From positions 1 to 64,000 of the forward strand of contig NZ_JAKRVX010000005.1 of NCBI RefSeq assembly GCF_023638035.1: a stretch of 64,000 nt of DNA, read 5' to 3'. Positions 5,345 through 63,577 of the stretch are shown here, piece after piece (within the stretch, counting starts at the first letter, position 1; each line of letters opens with the position of its first letter). Source of the stretch: Natronocalculus amylovorans. GTDB taxonomy: Archaea; Halobacteriota; Halobacteria; Halobacteriales; Haloferacaceae. A program made the translations under genes and the position numbers. Below the pieces are notes generated by a model, which was given only the letters and a program-made list of their open reading frames with translations, ran no database searches and was not told where the DNA came from.

Positions 5345-5560
5345 AGTGAATCACCCCGAGGTCAAGCCTCGGGGCTTCCTGTTTCGATGACGTGACTTGC
5401 AGACACACGCTGGATATCAGCGGTGTCCGTAGCGGTCACAGTCTCCACAGGCGTGGATTCGGGCCATCCCAGCCCTAATATAGAAAACCCTCTTTTTAGG
5501 ACGTTCATCGATGCATTCGCATCCCTATCTGTCTCAAACCCACAGCCAGGACACGAGTGT
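5345..5560 (-). ncRNA. Predicted tnpB 3'-end guide RNA (sotRNA/reRNA)
   Basis: In haloarchaea, sense-overlapping transcripts have been reported from the 3' ends of IS1341-type tnpB genes, and in TnpB biology the RNA from the tnpB end through the right end is the guide scaffold. This stretch is the matching region, closing with the hairpin at 5354-5374. The guide would be the bases beyond the right end (below 5345). The boundaries are inferred; no transcript start can be seen. Confidence 0.45.
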
Positions 5561-6603
5561 TCCCTGACCCAAATGGGTTTTGTCGTTTCTACCCCACAAC
5601 ACGCACACTCTTTGGTCGTCCCACGAGAAGGCACTTGTACAACGTGTGTGCCGTACAAATCGCCTTTGTATTCGAGCAGGGTGATGAACTGTCGCCACGC
5701 TGCATCCTGCTTGTTCCGGGCGCTCCCCGTACCCTGAAGCATTCCAGCAACGTTTAAATCTTCGACGAACACGGCGTCGTACTCACGAACGAGCCACGTC
5801 GTCAGTTTGTGCTGATAGTCCAGTACGTTCCGCCGAATCTTCCGCTTCGTCTTAGCGACTTTCTGGCGCTGTTTCTCGTAGTTGTTCGAGCCGTGTTCTT
5901 TCCGCGAGAGGTTGCGTTGTTCTCGCCGGAGTCGCTCGTACTCGTCTTCGAGGTCGAGCCACTCCACTGCCTTTCCGTCCGACGTGTGGATGTAGTTCAA
6001 GATGCCGAGATCGACTCCCACGCTGTTGCTCGCGTCAAGCGAATCCAGTTCGGGTTTCTCTGGAACGTGTTCGTCGTCAGTTTCGAGGCTGAACGAGACG
6101 AACCACTCTCCAGTCACTTCTTTTTTGAGTGTGACTTCCTTGATAGTGGCATTTTTGCGGAGTGGTCGGTGATAACGGATTTTCATCCAGCCGATTTTAC
6201 TGAAGCGGACAGACGCAACCCTGTCTCGGCCCCTCTTGTTATCGAGGTCGAAGCCTGACTGGTTGTACGTGACACTTCGGTAGTCGCTGGGTGCTTGCCG
6301 CTTGAGCCACCCGACTTTGTATCCGTTTTCTTTCTTCTTGCGAAGGTTCGAGAGGTTACGGTGAAAGCGGGCGACGGTGGCTTGTGCTGCTTTCGAGTAT
6401 AACTCGGCGAATACGGGCCACTGTCGCTTCCACTCTGGAAGTTTGTTGTTCTGCGTGTATTCTTTGGGTTTGTCGTCGTCGGGACTATTCGTGTAGTCCC
6501 ATTTGACGTGATTGTAGAGTTGGCGATGAACGTCGATGTGATGTTCGGCAGCCGCCGCTACTTCGTCGCGTGGGTAAGCGCGGTAACGGTGGCTGTGTTC
6601 CAT
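5362..6603 (-). CDS. tnpB: TnpB RNA-guided nuclease (IS1341 type)
   Basis: A complete 413-residue TnpB. The RuvC-like catalytic residues are present: Asp in SVGVDLGILNYIHTS (about 192), Glu in AVFVEDLNVAGML (about 279) and Asp in DRDANASMNVLKRG (about 363). The zinc ribbon is made of CACCG and CPGCGFE. TnpB proteins are RNA-guided DNA nucleases, ancestors of Cas12, which cut donor or target DNA next to a short motif and help the element persist. The C-terminus (ESTPVETVTATD, then HVIETGSPEA) is encoded over the expected guide-RNA region. No tnpA and no small upstream gene accompany it. It belongs to the same lineage as the tnpB at 28123. Confidence 0.93.
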   Translation of the reverse strand: MEHSHRYRAYPRDEVAAAAEHHIDVHRQLYNHVKWDYTNSPDDDKPKEYTQNNKLPEWKRQWPVFAELYSKAAQATVARFHRNLSNLRKKKENGYKVGWLKRQAPSDYRSVTYNQSGFDLDNKRGRDRVASVRFSKIGWMKIRYHRPLRKNATIKEVTLKKEVTGEWFVSFSLETDDEHVPEKPELDSLDASNSVGVDLGILNYIHTSDGKAVEWLDLEDEYERLRREQRNLSRKEHGSNNYEKQRQKVAKTKRKIRRNVLDYQHKLTTWLVREYDAVFVEDLNVAGMLQGTGSARNKQDAAWRQFITLLEYKGDLYGTHVVQVPSRGTTKECACCGVETTKPIWVREHSCPGCGFETDRDANASMNVLKRGFSILGLGWPESTPVETVTATDTADIQRVSASHVIETGSPEA

Positions 6604-6712
6604 CGCTGTCTGTTGATTAGATAATGTGCCTATTTAATGATTTGTACCCGCGTTGTCGGATTCATCCCCGACCTCAAGGGTCGGGGTATTCTCCTTGACC
6701 GCCGATAAATAT

Positions 6713-6963
6713 AGGTAAACGTGCAGCACTCATGTCGGCTTCCTCCACGGGGTCAAGCCCCGTGGCATCCGCCTTGTATTTCTGTGAACTCGAGGTTGGT
6801 GTGGAAGATGACACAGTGCTGTTGATCGCTGCACCGACAGGGTCTGGAAGAGATAACCCAACTGCGATACGGGAAGCCCCGTTATCAGAACACATGTATT
6901 CTGATTGGCCAACAAGACGCAGCGCGTCTTGTGACGTCGTTTACGACAGGGAGGATGTCACAA
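6713..6963 (+). mobile_element. Degenerate IS200/IS605-type remnant with branched right end
   Basis: No gene is present. The stretch holds an 8-bp stem hairpin at 6745-6765 and a 27-nt sequence (6751-6777) repeated exactly at 63700-63726. Its right end (about 6873-6961) has the same layout as the element ending at 3816: an outer GCCCCGT/ACAGGG stem, a 22-nt near-palindrome at 6884-6905 (one mismatch versus the 3738 copy), a CAAGACGC/GCGTCTTG hairpin at 6913-6931, then GGGAGGATGTCAC. It ends 3-4 bases before the stop codon of the ABC permease gene and directly abuts the tnpB element on its other side, so at least two insertions piled up here. Confidence 0.65.
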
Positions 6964-28114: not shown

Positions 28115-28340
28115 TAAGTGAATTACCACGGGTCACCTGACCCGTGGCTTCCTGTTTCAACGACGCGCTTTGCAGGCACGACACGAAACGACGAATTGTC
28201 GTTCACGTCCGCACCCGTAGGGAGCGCAGTCTCCGCAGGCGTTGATTCGGCCTCTCCCAGACCTACTATCGCATCCACATCGTACTCGATACCTAGTTTG
28301 TCTAACCCGAGTTTCAGGATGTTATATGAAGCGTTCTCGT
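28115..28340 (-). ncRNA. Predicted tnpB 3'-end guide RNA (sotRNA/reRNA)
   Basis: Region equivalent to the reported sense-overlapping transcripts of haloarchaeal tnpB genes. It covers the AESTPAET-coding tail and the 10-bp stem hairpin at 28126-28147. The guide would read into the bases below 28115. The limits are inferred by position only. Confidence 0.42.
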
Positions 28341-29515
28341 CCCGGTCAGTCTCGAACCCACAACTCGGACACGAGTGTTCCCGAACCCAGAGTGCTTTGT
28401 TGGACTCACCGTCACAACGAGCACATCGCTTCGTCGTCCCCTCAGGTGGGACGGTCACGACGTGACAACCGTTCTTATCGCCGTGACGCTTGAACGTCTT
28501 GATGGCGTCACTCCACGACATCGACGCTATGTTCCGCCCATTCGAGTCCTGTTTGAGCATCTCGCGGACGTTGAGTTTCTCCAAGAACACCGCGTCGTAC
28601 TGCGTCGTGTACGAGCCAGCGAGTTTCTCAATGCAGTCCTTACGCTTGTTCGAAAGTGTCTCGTATGCTTCCGCAAGTTTCACTCGTGCGTTCTCCCAGT
28701 TCGCAGAGTCGTGTTCCTTTCGAGACAACGCTCGGTGACGTTTCTCGATTCGCTCACGGTCTTCAGACTCGTCCAACGGCGTAACCGCAGTACCGTCTGA
28801 ATCGTGCGTGAACTTGAGGATACCGAGATCAATACCAACAGTATCTTCAAGTTGGATATTTTTGACGGCTGGTTTATCGGGGTATTCTGGGTTGTGGTCA
28901 ACGACGACCGAAGCGTACCATTTTCCCGATTTTTCTTCCTTAAGACGAACTTCTTTGATGGTTCCATCTTCAGGAATTGGGCGATGGTAGTCAACGTCCA
29001 TTGTTCCGAGTTTCGAGAGTTCGAGTGTGGCGTGTTCGGTTCGGCCCGTGTTACTATCCACGTCAAAGCCAGACTGATTGAACACGATACTGCGGAACTC
29101 TCGGGGTGATTTCCACTTGAGTCTCCCCACTTTGTAGCCGTTGGATTTGAGTGACTTGAGAACGCTGAGGCTTGAGAAGATGCGTCGGACGGCCATCTGC
29201 AAGCACTTCGAATTCACCGTTTTCCACGAGTTCCACTTGCGTTTCCACGCAGGGAGTTTGTTCTGGAGGCGAGTGTACGTCGGCTTCTCGCCGTCAGGAG
29301 CAGAGTCGTAGCGTCCGAGTGCGTGGTTGTACACCTCCCGACAAATGTTGATGTGTCTGCGGGCCTCACTCGCGACATCTTCAGTCGGGTATACGCGGTA
29401 TTTGAACGTCTGCTCCACTACCGATATGTTGGGGGCGTACAACTTGAAGATTCGGTTCAGGTCGGGCGATTGTCGCATTCATCCCCGGGTGCGGTGACCC
29501 GGAGAATTCTGCTTG
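28118..29515 (-). mobile_element. IS1341-type tnpB element, complete (lineage A)
   Basis: The element carries tnpB only. The right end on the minus strand is a 10-bp stem hairpin at 28126-28147 overlapping the tnpB stop region. The left end has the CCGGGT-GCGGTG-ACCCGG hairpin at 29485-29502, with the outer edge near 29515. The next element begins about 15 bp away, so two different insertions are nested or tandem. It has no CGATCG across its length, in contrast with flanking genes. Confidence 0.82.
28123..29478 (-). CDS. tnpB: TnpB RNA-guided nuclease (IS1341 type)
   Basis: 451 residues with the full catalytic set: Asp in TVGIDLGILKFTHDS, Glu in AVFLEKLNVREML, a zinc ribbon (CARCDGE, CPSCGFE) and the last Asp in DRDENASYNILKLG. 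It belongs to the same lineage as the protein at 5362: both share the KYRVYP/HRYRAYP start region, the CPxCGFETDRD motif and an AESTPxET tail. The ATG at 29478 lies close to the left-end hairpin. An internal GTG around 29418 (VEQTFKYRVYP) gives a more usual N-terminus and may be the true start. Function as for other TnpB: RNA-guided cleavage, with the guide from the 3' end. Confidence 0.92.
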   Translation of the reverse strand: MRQSPDLNRIFKLYAPNISVVEQTFKYRVYPTEDVASEARRHINICREVYNHALGRYDSAPDGEKPTYTRLQNKLPAWKRKWNSWKTVNSKCLQMAVRRIFSSLSVLKSLKSNGYKVGRLKWKSPREFRSIVFNQSGFDVDSNTGRTEHATLELSKLGTMDVDYHRPIPEDGTIKEVRLKEEKSGKWYASVVVDHNPEYPDKPAVKNIQLEDTVGIDLGILKFTHDSDGTAVTPLDESEDRERIEKRHRALSRKEHDSANWENARVKLAEAYETLSNKRKDCIEKLAGSYTTQYDAVFLEKLNVREMLKQDSNGRNIASMSWSDAIKTFKRHGDKNGCHVVTVPPEGTTKRCARCDGESNKALWVREHSCPSCGFETDRDENASYNILKLGLDKLGIEYDVDAIVGLGEAESTPAETALPTGADVNDNSSFRVVPAKRVVETGSHGSGDPW

Positions 29516-53354: not shown

Positions 53355-53610
53355 ATATTGTGAACAACCCCGACCACAAGGGTCGGGGCTTCTTCGTGGT
53401 TCCCTCAGATTATCGCTAACACTCCCTGCAACCTTGACGCCTACCCGTTCCAGAGCAAGGCCATCTCAACCGGTTACGAGGGATGAGGCCGGGCGGTTCA
53501 CACGCCCCGATGCCCACCGTCGTCGTCCGAAAATCGAAGATTTTCGTGATCACGAAAGACTCTATCTTTCGAACGACACCTTCCGAACTTGAGGAAGGCT
53601 CTTGAGAGCA
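53355..53610 (-). ncRNA. Predicted tnpB 3'-end guide RNA (sotRNA/reRNA)
   Basis: The stretch from the tnpB 3' end to the terminal hairpin, in the position of known haloarchaeal sense-overlapping tnpB transcripts. It contains strong hairpins at about 53530-53575 and 53368-53388. The guide would be read below 53355. The ends are inferred by position. Confidence 0.45.
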
Positions 53611-54767
53611 GGCACATCTAACAAACACTTCTTCAATCCACGCTTCGCAATGTTCACCGACGCATTCCTATCCGAATGGTCTTGGTGACCACACAACTTA
53701 CACTTGAATCGCTTCCGCCGTCGATTCGCTCGCTCGGCGTGTTCACACGCAGTCAACGCACAGCCCTGACTCGTGTACTCCGCTTCAACCGAAGCAATCG
53801 GAACACCTTCAAACGCTGCTTTGTACGCAATGAACACTTGCGTTGCACGAAACGGCATCGCGTGGAGCCGACGATTCATCCGAGTGCCGTAGTCGATTGA
53901 CTCACGCATATCCTTGAGGTCTTCAAGAGCAATGCACGGGTCAGGAAACCGCTTCGCAAACTCGACTACAGCCCGAGACAGTTTGTGGAGCCTGTCGTGG
54001 ACGAACCGATACTCCCGGTCACGAACCACCTTCTTGTACGACAGCTTCCCCGCATTCTGCATCCGCTTTTTTATCGTGAAATAGCGATGACGCTCAGACT
54101 TGATTTCGGGGAAGTCGATAACAAGCGTGTCGAGAACTCCCGTTTCATTCATCGCTGTCAACGCGATGTTATCCTCGTTCACATCCACTCCAATCACCGT
54201 CTTCGAGTCGGTTTTGTCTCGAACGGTCTGCGTCTGGTGGGTGACGTTGACGTGAAGTTCAGCACGGCCATCTGTAAAGAGGGCTTCAGCCGTCCCTATC
54301 TTCCACTCGCCACTCGACAACGCGGCTTTTAGCACGTCGAGATGCACCGGGTCTCCAACGAGTGTCCCCCGAACTGGGTGATATGGTTTCGGAGAGATAC
54401 GGAACGAAACGTCACCGTCGTCGGTGAGTGAGAGCGTATATCCTTCTTTGTGGTTCATCCGCAGAGGGTATAGCCCAGTTTTGGTGTGACTGGGAATGTT
54501 GTAGTCGTCGTATTCGTAGTAGTTCTCCATCGCTTCGAGAGCTTTCTTGACGACCAACTGAGTGTTATTCTTCACGAGGGTGGCGTCTTGCTCCATCTGG
54601 CGACGGATGTCATCCCAGTCTGCGCCTTGTTTGGCGAGGTGGATGGTGTCGTTGTACACTGAGCGCGATTCTTGTGTGGACTCGAAGACTTTCACCTCAT
54701 CACCCTCTTCGTAAAACTGGAGTTGGAGTGGGAGGGTTTTCGTGAGGCCTTGGTCTTCGATGTCCAT
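53562..54767 (-). CDS. tnpB: TnpB RNA-guided nuclease (lineage B)
   Basis: 401 residues. Catalytic residues: Asp in VIGVDVNEDNIALTA, Glu in CIALEDLKDMRES, Asp in HSDRNASVNIAKRG. The zinc ribbon is CALTAC with FKCKLCG. Shared features with the TnpB at 62252 (ALEDLKDMRESIDYGTRMNR against VMEDLAYIRESLDYGKYMNR) define a lineage distinct from the two A-type proteins. A short RHH-like gene ends 9 bp upstream and is probably co-transcribed. It is part of a complete IS605-type element whose TnpA is encoded divergently. Confidence 0.93.
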   Translation of the reverse strand: MDIEDQGLTKTLPLQLQFYEEGDEVKVFESTQESRSVYNDTIHLAKQGADWDDIRRQMEQDATLVKNNTQLVVKKALEAMENYYEYDDYNIPSHTKTGLYPLRMNHKEGYTLSLTDDGDVSFRISPKPYHPVRGTLVGDPVHLDVLKAALSSGEWKIGTAEALFTDGRAELHVNVTHQTQTVRDKTDSKTVIGVDVNEDNIALTAMNETGVLDTLVIDFPEIKSERHRYFTIKKRMQNAGKLSYKKVVRDREYRFVHDRLHKLSRAVVEFAKRFPDPCIALEDLKDMRESIDYGTRMNRRLHAMPFRATQVFIAYKAAFEGVPIASVEAEYTSQGCALTACEHAERANRRRKRFKCKLCGHQDHSDRNASVNIAKRGLKKCLLDVPALKSLPQVRKVSFER

Positions 54768-54776
54768 GCGTGCTAC

Positions 54777-54917
54777 TCACTCAGTGTCTTCGTCGTACGT
54801 CCACTCTCGGAGGATTTCTCGTACGACATCGGCTTTTGTTCGGTCTTCGTCGATGCATTTCTTCGAGAAGTCTTTGTAGAAGTCCTCCTCGAAATCGACG
54901 GTGAATCGTCGTGTCAT
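54777..54917 (-). CDS. Small RHH-like protein upstream of tnpB
   Basis: 46 residues from the ATG at 54917 to the TGA at 54777-54779. The pattern MTRRFTVDFEEDFYKDF, then RTKADVVREILREWT, is a beta strand followed by two helices, as in ribbon-helix-helix (CopG/ParD-type) DNA-binding proteins. It ends 9 bp before tnpB and starts 38 bp from the divergent tnpA, so it could repress both from the shared promoter region. A second short gene with similar predicted form overlaps the start of the tnpB at 62252. The two A-type tnpB genes have no such gene. The protein is acidic, with a DEDTE tail. Confidence 0.7.
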   Translation of the reverse strand: MTRRFTVDFEEDFYKDFSKKCIDEDRTKADVVREILREWTYDEDTE

Positions 54918-54955
54918 CTTTTTTGCAGTAAATACTTAGAAGTGTATTCACTTAA

Positions 54956-55378
54956 ATGTTGTTACTTCGTGTAGTGTGTATAGAGGCGACTCGCTCAAAC
55001 CACACAGTGTACAATATCAACTATCATTTCGTGTGGTGCCCCCGGTATCGACACTCATTTTTCGACTACGTTGCAGAGACATTGGAATCGGAGTTCCATG
55101 CGATTATCGAGCGGAACGACTACGAGTTGCGGTCGTTGCATATCTCTCCTGACCATGTTCATGTGTTCTTGGGAGCGCATGCAAAACACTCGCCAAGTGA
55201 GATTGTGTCACGGTTGAAGAGCGTGACAGCACGAAGATTGTGGTCAGAATATCCCGAAATGATGCGGTCGTTGTATTGGGGCGGTGGGTGTTGGGAGCGT
55301 TCGTTCTATGTGGGAACAGCAGGTGAGGTGAGTCGAGAAACGATTGAACAGTACATCAATCGCAGTGAGCATGTGTAG
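54956..55378 (+). CDS. tnpA: TnpA Y1 transposase (IS200/IS605 family)
   Basis: 140 residues with the HUH single-strand transposase pattern: YNINYHFVWCPRYRH near the start, the His-hydrophobic-His motif SPDHVHVFLG, and a C-terminal helix with the nucleophilic Tyr in VSRETIEQYINRSEHV. SFYVGTAGEVS precedes that helix, as in family members. TnpA excises and inserts the element as single-stranded circles by recognising the subterminal hairpins. It is divergent from the RHH-like gene and tnpB. Being intact, it is the best candidate to mobilise the other elements here that have only tnpB or no gene. Confidence 0.92.
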   Translation: MLLLRVVCIEATRSNHTVYNINYHFVWCPRYRHSFFDYVAETLESEFHAIIERNDYELRSLHISPDHVHVFLGAHAKHSPSEIVSRLKSVTARRLWSEYPEMMRSLYWGGGCWERSFYVGTAGEVSRETIEQYINRSEHV

Positions 55379-62045: not shown

Positions 62046-62115
62046 CCACGTTCTGACAGCCAGCCCGAATGCCGACCGTTAGCTTTAACTTACATAGAAA
62101 CTTACGCTTAGGCGA

Positions 62116-62277
62116 ATGAGAGCCGACTTCGATATGGATCGAGGCGGGCCACTTCACGAGGCCGTGAAGCAATACGCCCGCGATAACGGGATACGCCACT
62201 CACGAGCGTACCCCGAACTCCTCCGCAAAGCACTCGAATCTGAAGGCTACGATGTCAACGACTCAGACGGCGAATAA
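62116..62277 (+). CDS. Small RHH-like protein overlapping tnpB
   Basis: 53 residues from the ATG at 62116 to the TAA at 62275-62277, overlapping the start of tnpB (62252) by 26 bp in another frame. The pattern MRADFDMDRGGPLHEAVKQY and then YPELLRKALESEGYD gives a short N-terminal strand and two helices, as in RHH-like regulators, and it ends in an acidic tail (NDSDGE). The overlap implies translational coupling. The sequence is not closely related to the small gene at 54777, but size and place are alike, suggesting a recurring partner of lineage-B tnpB. Confidence 0.65.
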   Translation: MRADFDMDRGGPLHEAVKQYARDNGIRHSRAYPELLRKALESEGYDVNDSDGE

Positions 62278-63577
62278 GACGCTGGAAGCCACGTTCGCAC
62301 CACCCACGCGGTGCAAAGAGCAACGCCTCCAGCAAACGCTGTCCGAATACCGAGACGCACTCAACGACGCCTTCGAGCAAGACTGTACGACGATGAGTGC
62401 CACGAACGACGTGGTGACGCCGTACAACCTACCGTACCAAGCGAAAGACGCTCTCAAATCCTACGTCCCGAAACTCCACAACACGTACAACGCCAACGAG
62501 TTGGGCGACGAACACCCGCTCAGGTTCGTGAACCGAGCCGGGAAGTTCGACCGCGACACCTCGCGTGAGTACGAAATCTGTTGGAACGTTCCGCAACCCG
62601 GTCGCGGAACCAACTTCTGGATTCCACTCCGACCGAACCCCGAACAGCAAGAATTGTGGGACGAGATGCTCGATGACGAGTCGAGTACCAAGGTGGGCGA
62701 ACTTCGGTTGCAGAAACACCGGAAGATGTGGACGCTCCACGTCACCGTTGAATACGAAATCGAGGACACCTCCGAACTTCCCGAGAACCCGACTCGGGTT
62801 GGATTCGATATTGGCGAGTCGATGTTGGTCACGGGCTGTGCCCTCCAACACGACACTCCCACGAAACCCCTTCTCATCACCGGGAAAGAGGCCAAACAAA
62901 TCCGCAAGGAGATGTTCACGACACTCAAGCGACTCCAAGAGCGAGACGCCTCCGAGTGGCGTATCGAGGAGCGATTCTCGTACTACCAGAACCGGCTCAC
63001 GGACATCATCGAGAAGGCGTCTCGGGAATCTGTGGAGTACGCCCGTCAGTTTGAGAACCCCGTCATCGTGATGGAAGACTTGGCGTATATCCGTGAGTCG
63101 CTGGACTATGGGAAGTATATGAACCGTCGCCTGCACTCGTGGGCCTTTGCTCGGTTGCAGGGTCGTATCGAGGACAAGGCGAAGGACGCCGGTATTCCAG
63201 TTCGATACGTCCGCCCGCAGTACACCTCGAAGACGTGTCACTCGTGCAAGCACATCGGGTATCGACCTCGGCAAGCCGAGTTCAAGTGTAAGAATCCAGA
63301 GTGCCACGTATCGACGTTCCAAGCGGACATCAACGCGAGTGCGAACATCGCACGTCGCGTAGACCCGTGGGGAGAGAGCTTGCCGTGGAAACAGGCAGGC
63401 GATGACTCGCCACAGGACGGGAGCCGTTGTGACACGGCCACGACTCAGTGTGAGCAGAGCGAGACACCCTCGCAGATGACACTTACAACGTTTCGAGAGT
63501 CGAAACCTACAGCCAGCGTTCACGAGACTATGTCTCGTGGGCCAACCAGAACCTACGGTTCTGGTGACGACGACTGA
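62252..63577 (+). CDS. tnpB: TnpB RNA-guided nuclease (lineage B)
   Basis: 441 residues. Catalytic residues: Asp in VGFDIGESMLVTGC, Glu in VIVMEDLAYIRESLDYG, and Asp in TFQADINASANIARRV. The zinc ribbon is KTCHSCKHIG and FKCKNPECHVS. It is most like the protein at 53562 and is preceded by a small overlapping gene. The C-terminal tail (SRGPTRTYGSGDDD) lies over the expected guide-RNA region and ends 25 bp before the right-end hairpin. Confidence 0.93.
   Translation: MSTTQTANKTLEATFAPPTRCKEQRLQQTLSEYRDALNDAFEQDCTTMSATNDVVTPYNLPYQAKDALKSYVPKLHNTYNANELGDEHPLRFVNRAGKFDRDTSREYEICWNVPQPGRGTNFWIPLRPNPEQQELWDEMLDDESSTKVGELRLQKHRKMWTLHVTVEYEIEDTSELPENPTRVGFDIGESMLVTGCALQHDTPTKPLLITGKEAKQIRKEMFTTLKRLQERDASEWRIEERFSYYQNRLTDIIEKASRESVEYARQFENPVIVMEDLAYIRESLDYGKYMNRRLHSWAFARLQGRIEDKAKDAGIPVRYVRPQYTSKTCHSCKHIGYRPRQAEFKCKNPECHVSTFQADINASANIARRVDPWGESLPWKQAGDDSPQDGSRCDTATTQCEQSETPSQMTLTTFRESKPTASVHETMSRGPTRTYGSGDDD

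Follow-up and report, generated by a model that had tools for sequence, protein, structure and literature searches.

Short genes preceding tnpB in haloarchaeal IS200/IS605 elements as probable autoregulators in an exchangeable regulator-operator cassette

The two short genes that precede the lineage-B tnpB genes in the analyzed stretch of Natronocalculus amylovorans DNA (64,000 nucleotides, hereafter the window), ORF1 and ORF2, are, as judged by sequence comparison, conserved protein genes under purifying selection. With a probability of roughly three in four, they encode element-borne transcriptional autoregulators, most likely repressors, that reside in an exchangeable regulator-operator cassette. 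As alignments of related elements show, this putative cassette, in forms with an RHH1 (ribbon-helix-helix, ORF1-type), VapB-like, or DUF2080/AbrB-like protein, has been swapped as a unit among haloarchaeal IS200/IS605 elements, with tnpA and tnpB staying in place.

Table 1. Genes and candidate sites in the window
Feature	Position	Strand	Evidence or remark
ORF1, 46-aa RHH slot gene (RHH1 class)	54777..54917	-	homologs, fold family, dN/dS
tnpB1, 401-aa TnpB	53562..54767	-	Pfam Cas12f1-like_TNB 4.6e-15, NCBIfam guided_TnpB 1e-37
tnpA, IS200-type Y1 transposase, divergent from ORF1	54956..55378	+	Pfam Y1_Tnp 7.7e-36
Candidate ORF1 operator, AAGTG-N4-CACTT perfect inverted repeat, tnpA-ORF1 gap	54940..54953		sole copy in window, 0.05 expected
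Second box pair AGTA-N2-TACT, tnpA-ORF1 gap	54927..54936		read from sequence; some relatives have comparable boxes
ORF2, 53-aa small gene, probably RHH	62116..62277	+	homologs, model, dN/dS
tnpB2, 441-aa TnpB, lineage differs from tnpB1	62252..63577	+	NCBIfam guided_TnpB 4e-42
Candidate ORF2 operator, CTTAC-N7-CTTAC direct repeat, ends 10 bp 5′ of ORF2	62089..62105	+	sole copy in window
Lineage-A tnpB, no slot gene (comparison)	5362..6603	-	profile match; upstream ORFs compared with slot families
Second lineage-A tnpB, no slot gene (comparison)	28123..29478	-	profile match; upstream ORFs compared with slot families

In terms of gene order, an earlier note on this DNA had described a 46-codon gene ending 9 bp before one lineage-B tnpB and a 53-codon gene overlapping the other by 26 bp, and its coordinates and lengths are exact (Table 1; gap 54768–54776, overlap 62252–62277). 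The two TnpBs are distant relatives, with 36% identity over the C-terminal half. ORF1 and the divergent tnpA are separated by 38 bp, a later tnpA start (e.g., the GTG at 54974) being possible, and the annotation of pAArc-Mg-01 shows the same gene order as the focal ORF1 element. With a Y1 tnpA and a tnpB, the focal element is of the IS200/IS605 type, and it is the only one of the two to be so, as no tnpA match was found within 1200 bp upstream in the ORF2 element. An Rfam search of the window for a guide RNA gave no match at gathering level. Elsewhere in the same genome, a second ORF2-tnpB2 copy is truncated by a contig end (L018, G000:C5:2-620), a partial ORF2 lies at G000:C7:9353-9454, and a serine-recombinase-like ORF, recognized by eye, overlaps the start of a longer downstream TnpB-like ORF, as in IS607 (L031, G000:C5:33885-34214).

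Homologs of ORF1 were found in 25 of the 293 haloarchaeal genomes of the order that make up the sample. At 22 of the 25 loci the gene is intact and lies immediately 5′ of a tnpB (gap of +9 or 4-bp overlap) whose product is 49–100% identical to tnpB1; the others are two remnants (L055 and L056) and one locus with no adjoining TnpB (L054). ORF2 homologs occupy 51 places in 44 of the 293 genomes, and 29 of the 30 loci retrieved from these places precede a tnpB2-type gene, in one case a mere 62-aa piece, L075 being the exception. The pooled dN/dS is 0.237 for ORF1 (181 pairs, 22 sequences; L054–L056 excluded, as from the family alignments) and 0.111 for ORF2 (103 pairs, 27 sequences; L075, L080, and L081 excluded), and genes of the DUF2080 and VapB-like classes found in the same position before tnpB, termed the slot here, give 0.092 and 0.118, respectively. 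No pair of slot-gene sequences reaches a dN/dS of 1, and shifted frames give pN/pS values of 1.43–2.87. Conservation, position, and dN/dS together rule out a chance or hitchhiking ORF, and the search for conserved short ORFs upstream of tnpB that the earlier note had proposed as a check has thus come out in its favor.

The same note had considered these genes too short for routine gene finding, a remark that fails for ORF1, which is annotated as a hypothetical protein in the six closest plasmid records, and holds in part for ORF2, whose match region carries such an annotation in at least 4 of 11 plasmid records. The RHH companions of tnpB are hypothetical proteins or unannotated in plasmid records. 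In phage records, ORF1 has no match and DUF2080 has two weak ones, in methanogen virus records. Plasmid PHS2 of the laboratory strain Halobacterium salinarum R1 carries a slot-type locus, in which tnpB OE_RS11975 is preceded by the DUF2080 gene OE_RS13905.

The assignment of the ORF1 family to the ribbon-helix-helix fold is supported by profile comparison. The ORF1 homolog L037 passes the cut-off of Pfam RHH_1 (26.8 bits vs 20.5), and the ORF1 of the window itself scores 16.3 bits, under that cut-off. Outside haloarchaea, the next relatives of ORF1 are ParG proteins (47% identity over 38 aa, E 2e-5); with scores of 16.6 and 20.3 bits against the ParG cut-off of 21.4 and with tnpB as the neighboring gene, the ORF1 family falls outside ParG. 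The monomer model of ORF1 (pLDDT 77) has an extended N-terminus followed by two helices, residues 7–23 and 28–44. Foldseek returned no significant match to this model; among the seven best chains, which alone were realigned, so that missing fold families are uninformative there, PrpA antitoxin (Z 3.4) and NikR (Z 3.3) lead as weak matches. These two and the SSV-RH protein of the same list we take to be RHH proteins. For ORF2, Pfam gave no match up to E 1, and the model (helices 12–24 and 28–42, pLDDT 71) finds nothing significant with Foldseek, the best hit being a VapB chain at E 2.6; ORF2 is probably an RHH protein. The earlier view of both small genes as RHH-like is thereby borne out for the ORF1 family and not carried by a profile or fold match for ORF2, and structure prediction, which had been suggested as a check, yields two-helix models for both with a weak RHH likeness (Z ~3) for ORF1.

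ORF1 and ORF2 are two of several kinds of gene that fill the slot. When GTDB contigs were searched with a TnpB alignment, 158 relatives were obtained. Among the best 80 of these 158, which were retained for classification, the slot holds a DUF2080/AbrB-like gene in 23, a VapB-like gene in 18, an RHH1 (ORF1-type) gene in 10, a P191 gene in 3, a P158 gene in 1, and no gene in 25. Counting the three P191 loci, whose sequence immediately upstream contains a DUF2080 gene, brings the DUF2080 total to 26. The DUF2080 class passes both family cut-offs (Pfam 28.3 vs 21.5; NCBIfam 68.3 vs 22), and the VapB-like class resembles VAPB_antitox at a score under the cut-off. In nearly all slot-bearing loci, the stop codon of the slot gene overlaps or closely precedes the tnpB start. 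Of the 55 slot-bearing loci, 49 have a divergent tnpA, 5 do not, and 1 lies at a contig edge; of the slotless loci, none of the 24 that could be assessed has one, the 25th also being at an edge. The P191 loci and a contig C14 element in the same genome as the window, with a DUF2080 gene and a 74-aa gene, show that extra genes can sit between the regulator and tnpB. Extra genes of unassigned family were seen in this position, or in place of the regulator, at L114, L127, and L133 (191 aa), L143 (158 aa), and L002 (74 aa, with CxxC motifs).

Strong VapB-like matches precede a TnpB in all 13 cases. Of 10 weaker ones, 1 precedes another TnpB-like protein and 9 precede a ~490-aa protein without TnpB similarity. 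At these nine loci (L268–L272, L274, L275, L277, and L278) the VapB-like gene is 43–52% identical to the slot class and mostly overlaps the next gene by 4 bp, and BLAST finds no similarity of the ~490-aa protein to TnpB; they are possibly another system that uses the same kind of regulator.

The statement in the earlier note that lineage-A tnpB genes have no such companion is correct within the window, where no ORF upstream of the two lineage-A tnpBs matches any slot family at E 1e-3 (the best, ORF 6674-6895, matches the P158 protein at E 0.008), and incorrect elsewhere. DUF2080 slot proteins have matches in 123 of the 293 genomes. Of the 40 matches listed for the first 99 genomes, 22 are no more than 36 bp away from a tnpB of lineage A, 9 precede a B-type tnpB, and 9 are unassigned. 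Five of 30 lineage-A loci have an ORF2-like or SpoVT/AbrB-like small gene, the ORF2-like gene preceding three lineage-A tnpBs. A small companion is, then, not limited to lineage B. At L189 and L191, both lineage-A loci, a 44–46-aa protein distinct from DUF2080 is encoded at +5 bp upstream of tnpB; named by its motif, it is presumably SpoVT/AbrB-like.

Each slot class appears to carry its own candidate operator. In the motif counts that follow, the P191 and P158 loci are excluded, L055 is kept among the RHH1 loci, and L075 is left out of the ORF2 loci; the loci are related, so that motif conservation is partly descent. For the DUF2080 class, the palindrome GTATATCC-N3-GGATATAC is present with at most 2 mismatches in 23 of 23 loci, always at -25 from the gene start, and within 3 mismatches it is absent from all 30 RHH1 and all 18 VapB-like loci. 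Allowing at most 1 mismatch, the 293 genomes contain 38 copies, 36 of them 5–9 bp before a close DUF2080 gene, and one copy (in G240) of the reversed control. Seen from the gene side, a site with at most 1 mismatch accompanies 36 of 50 close DUF2080 genes, and the 14 without one include both copies in the window's own genome. A further 20 DUF2080 loci (19 before lineage-A TnpBs and L288 before a B-type) have a variant palindrome in the same place, with 2–4 mismatches in the 7 whose protein has a GNS loop and 5–8 in the other 13, as if operator and recognition loop changed together; this pattern may be one of common descent.

For the RHH1 class, AGTA-N4-AGTA-N4-AGTA, with boxes every 8 bp, is found with no more than 2 mismatches in 18 of 30 loci, in 0 of 41 others, and in ~2% of shuffles. 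The remaining 12 RHH1 loci depart from the class motif, and the focal subgroup has a divergent version: the perfect inverted repeat before ORF1 (Table 1) is not kept as such in the close relatives L033–L036. Exact AAGTA-type sites number nine in the 293 genomes, five of which lie 10–11 bp before an ORF1 homolog and two of the other four in one repeat tract; the reversed control pattern has about ten chance matches in the same genomes. The direct repeat before ORF2 is found with at most 1 mismatch in 15 of 29 ORF2 loci, among them all 10 close ones, where it lies at -27, and in no other class, the other 14 loci being off the motif. The VapB-like box AGTANACTTTT is present within 1 mismatch in 17 of 18 VapB-like loci, mostly at -36, and in no other class. 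Positions such as these suit leaderless haloarchaeal promoters, in which binding of a protein there would occlude the TATA element.

The exchange of the slot is clearly seen in closely related elements. In seven pairs chosen for unlike slot class, the tnpB DNA is 89–92% identical from -3 to -12 of the ATG onward (7 of 7), and the tnpA-side DNA is 75–89% identical, ending -179 to -235 from the tnpB ATG. No alignable DNA lies between these two conserved flanks in any of the seven pairs, which indicates that regulator and promoter were replaced together. On a TnpB tree of 101 rows, a minimum of 35 changes of slot label is required (shuffled mean 56.5), and the branches with good support imply no fewer than 5 changes for the ORF1-type, 4 for DUF2080, 3 for VapB-like, and 6 for no slot gene; the tree was built quickly, is weak at 41 of its 95 inner branches, and excludes TnpBs under 250 aa. 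Inheritance of the slot with tnpA or with tnpB was also considered, and neither accounts for the data: for 41 tnpAs and the 41 TnpBs of the same rows (tnpAs with stops or with matches under 110 columns excluded), 14 slot-type changes are needed on each tree, both of which are poorly resolved.

These observations can be accommodated in a mechanism in which the slot protein would dimerize and bind a dedicated operator overlapping the promoter just 5′ of its own start codon, for which the conserved motifs are the candidates. The bound regulator would limit transcription of the regulator-tnpB mRNA and probably also that of the divergent tnpA, ~40–60 bp away, and the observed arrangement of the regulator end, overlapping or abutting the tnpB start, would provide operon-like coupling. 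The earlier note had offered repression of transposition or of tnpB/guide expression, or an influence on guide choice. Repression of transposition or tnpB expression is favored here, because of the class-specific operator candidates at the promoter and the association of the divergent tnpA with slot-bearing loci; for an influence on guide choice, no evidence was found. Activation by the slot protein instead of repression is possible. Among 30 loci of the tnpB2 lineage, 7 have ORF2 and 12 have a co-oriented tnpA-like match directly upstream, never both, so that the slot genes cannot serve in general to control tnpA.

The same loci bear on another role for the small protein, binding of element DNA as an aid to excision or insertion by TnpA. 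The strong association of slot genes of the tnpB1 lineage with a divergent tnpA would suit such an accessory factor, but slot genes also stand before tnpBs that lack tnpA, in these seven ORF2 elements and at lineage-A loci, and the DUF2080 operator copies sit at the regulator promoter, which makes this role very improbable. Less probable still is a coupling leader, an ORF that chiefly brings ribosomes to the tnpB start with its product secondary: the position of the slot-gene stop codons would be expected of it, but dN/dS values of 0.09–0.24 indicate selection on the proteins, and the candidate operators track the protein class.

An antitoxin-like action, in which the small protein binds TnpB and restrains the nuclease in the manner of a type II antitoxin encoded before its toxin, is unlikely, though it has the most in its favor among these alternatives. 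The slot families are antitoxin-like, the order is antitoxin-first with overlapping genes, and an RHH antitoxin is among the chains nearest to the ORF1 model; in addition, PMC10440598 lists a DUF2080 protein among antitoxins validated against nuclease toxins. A specific protein interface is nevertheless hard to reconcile with TnpBs ~90% identical in DNA that pair with unrelated protein families, the observation that ranks this action below autoregulation, and with the many close TnpBs that have no slot gene at all (the 25 slotless loci noted above).

The autoregulator reading can be compared with known systems. In slot, tnpB overlap, and element type, ORF1 and ORF2 are like the DUF2080 transposase-associated protein (NCBIfam NF033496, Pfam PF09853), which belongs to a different protein family; since NCBI names it transposase-associated, a small tnpB companion is known at the annotation level. 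VapB and other RHH antitoxins are likewise small RHH proteins encoded directly 5′ of a nuclease gene, but a known toxin gene is missing from the slot loci, the nuclease TnpB cuts DNA under RNA guidance, and any antitoxin activity is putative. ParG, the nearest characterized relative of ORF1, is described in PMC7308502 as a repressor of its own operon with an RHH fold; its parH site is made up of tetramer boxes with AT-rich spacers, to which the short repeated boxes of the RHH1 class are similar. ORF1 differs in matching only positions 35–75 of the 76 in the ParG profile, being too short for the ParG N-terminal tail, and in having TnpB as its partner, where ParG has ParF.

Temperate phage immunity regions, in which a repressor and its cognate operator are exchanged as a unit within conserved flanks, are the counterpart for the exchange itself, the difference being that the slot lies inside an IS200/IS605 element. 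By extension, the slot could be a heteroimmunity module, whose repressor would act in trans to silence elements sharing its operator class, with escape by swapping regulator and operator and with immunity groups defined by the repressor. This extension is tentative and, on balance, doubtful; if true, it would explain the diversity and low copy number of haloarchaeal TnpB elements. A single slot class per genome was considered as a sign of immunity and rejected, as a DUF2080 gene is likewise present in the C14 element of the genome from which the window comes and, unlike in phage immunity, same-class copies coexist: the 50 close DUF2080 copies are spread over 43 genomes, 6 of which have two or more, against a Poisson expectation of ~4 genomes, so that there is no depletion.

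Transposon-encoded regulators and exchangeable repressor-operator modules are each known separately. Our literature search, which covered open-access articles and few subscription journals or preprints, found no report on small tnpB regulators, slot swapping, or their operators. TnpB is the ancestor-type of Cas12 nucleases, and to our knowledge little is known of how its expression is restrained in native hosts. The combination of a swappable small gene with a candidate site before tnpB suggests that these elements have an exchangeable on/off switch, and such a dedicated regulator with its candidate operator would be a definite point at which tnpA, TnpB, and probably the guide RNA could be controlled.
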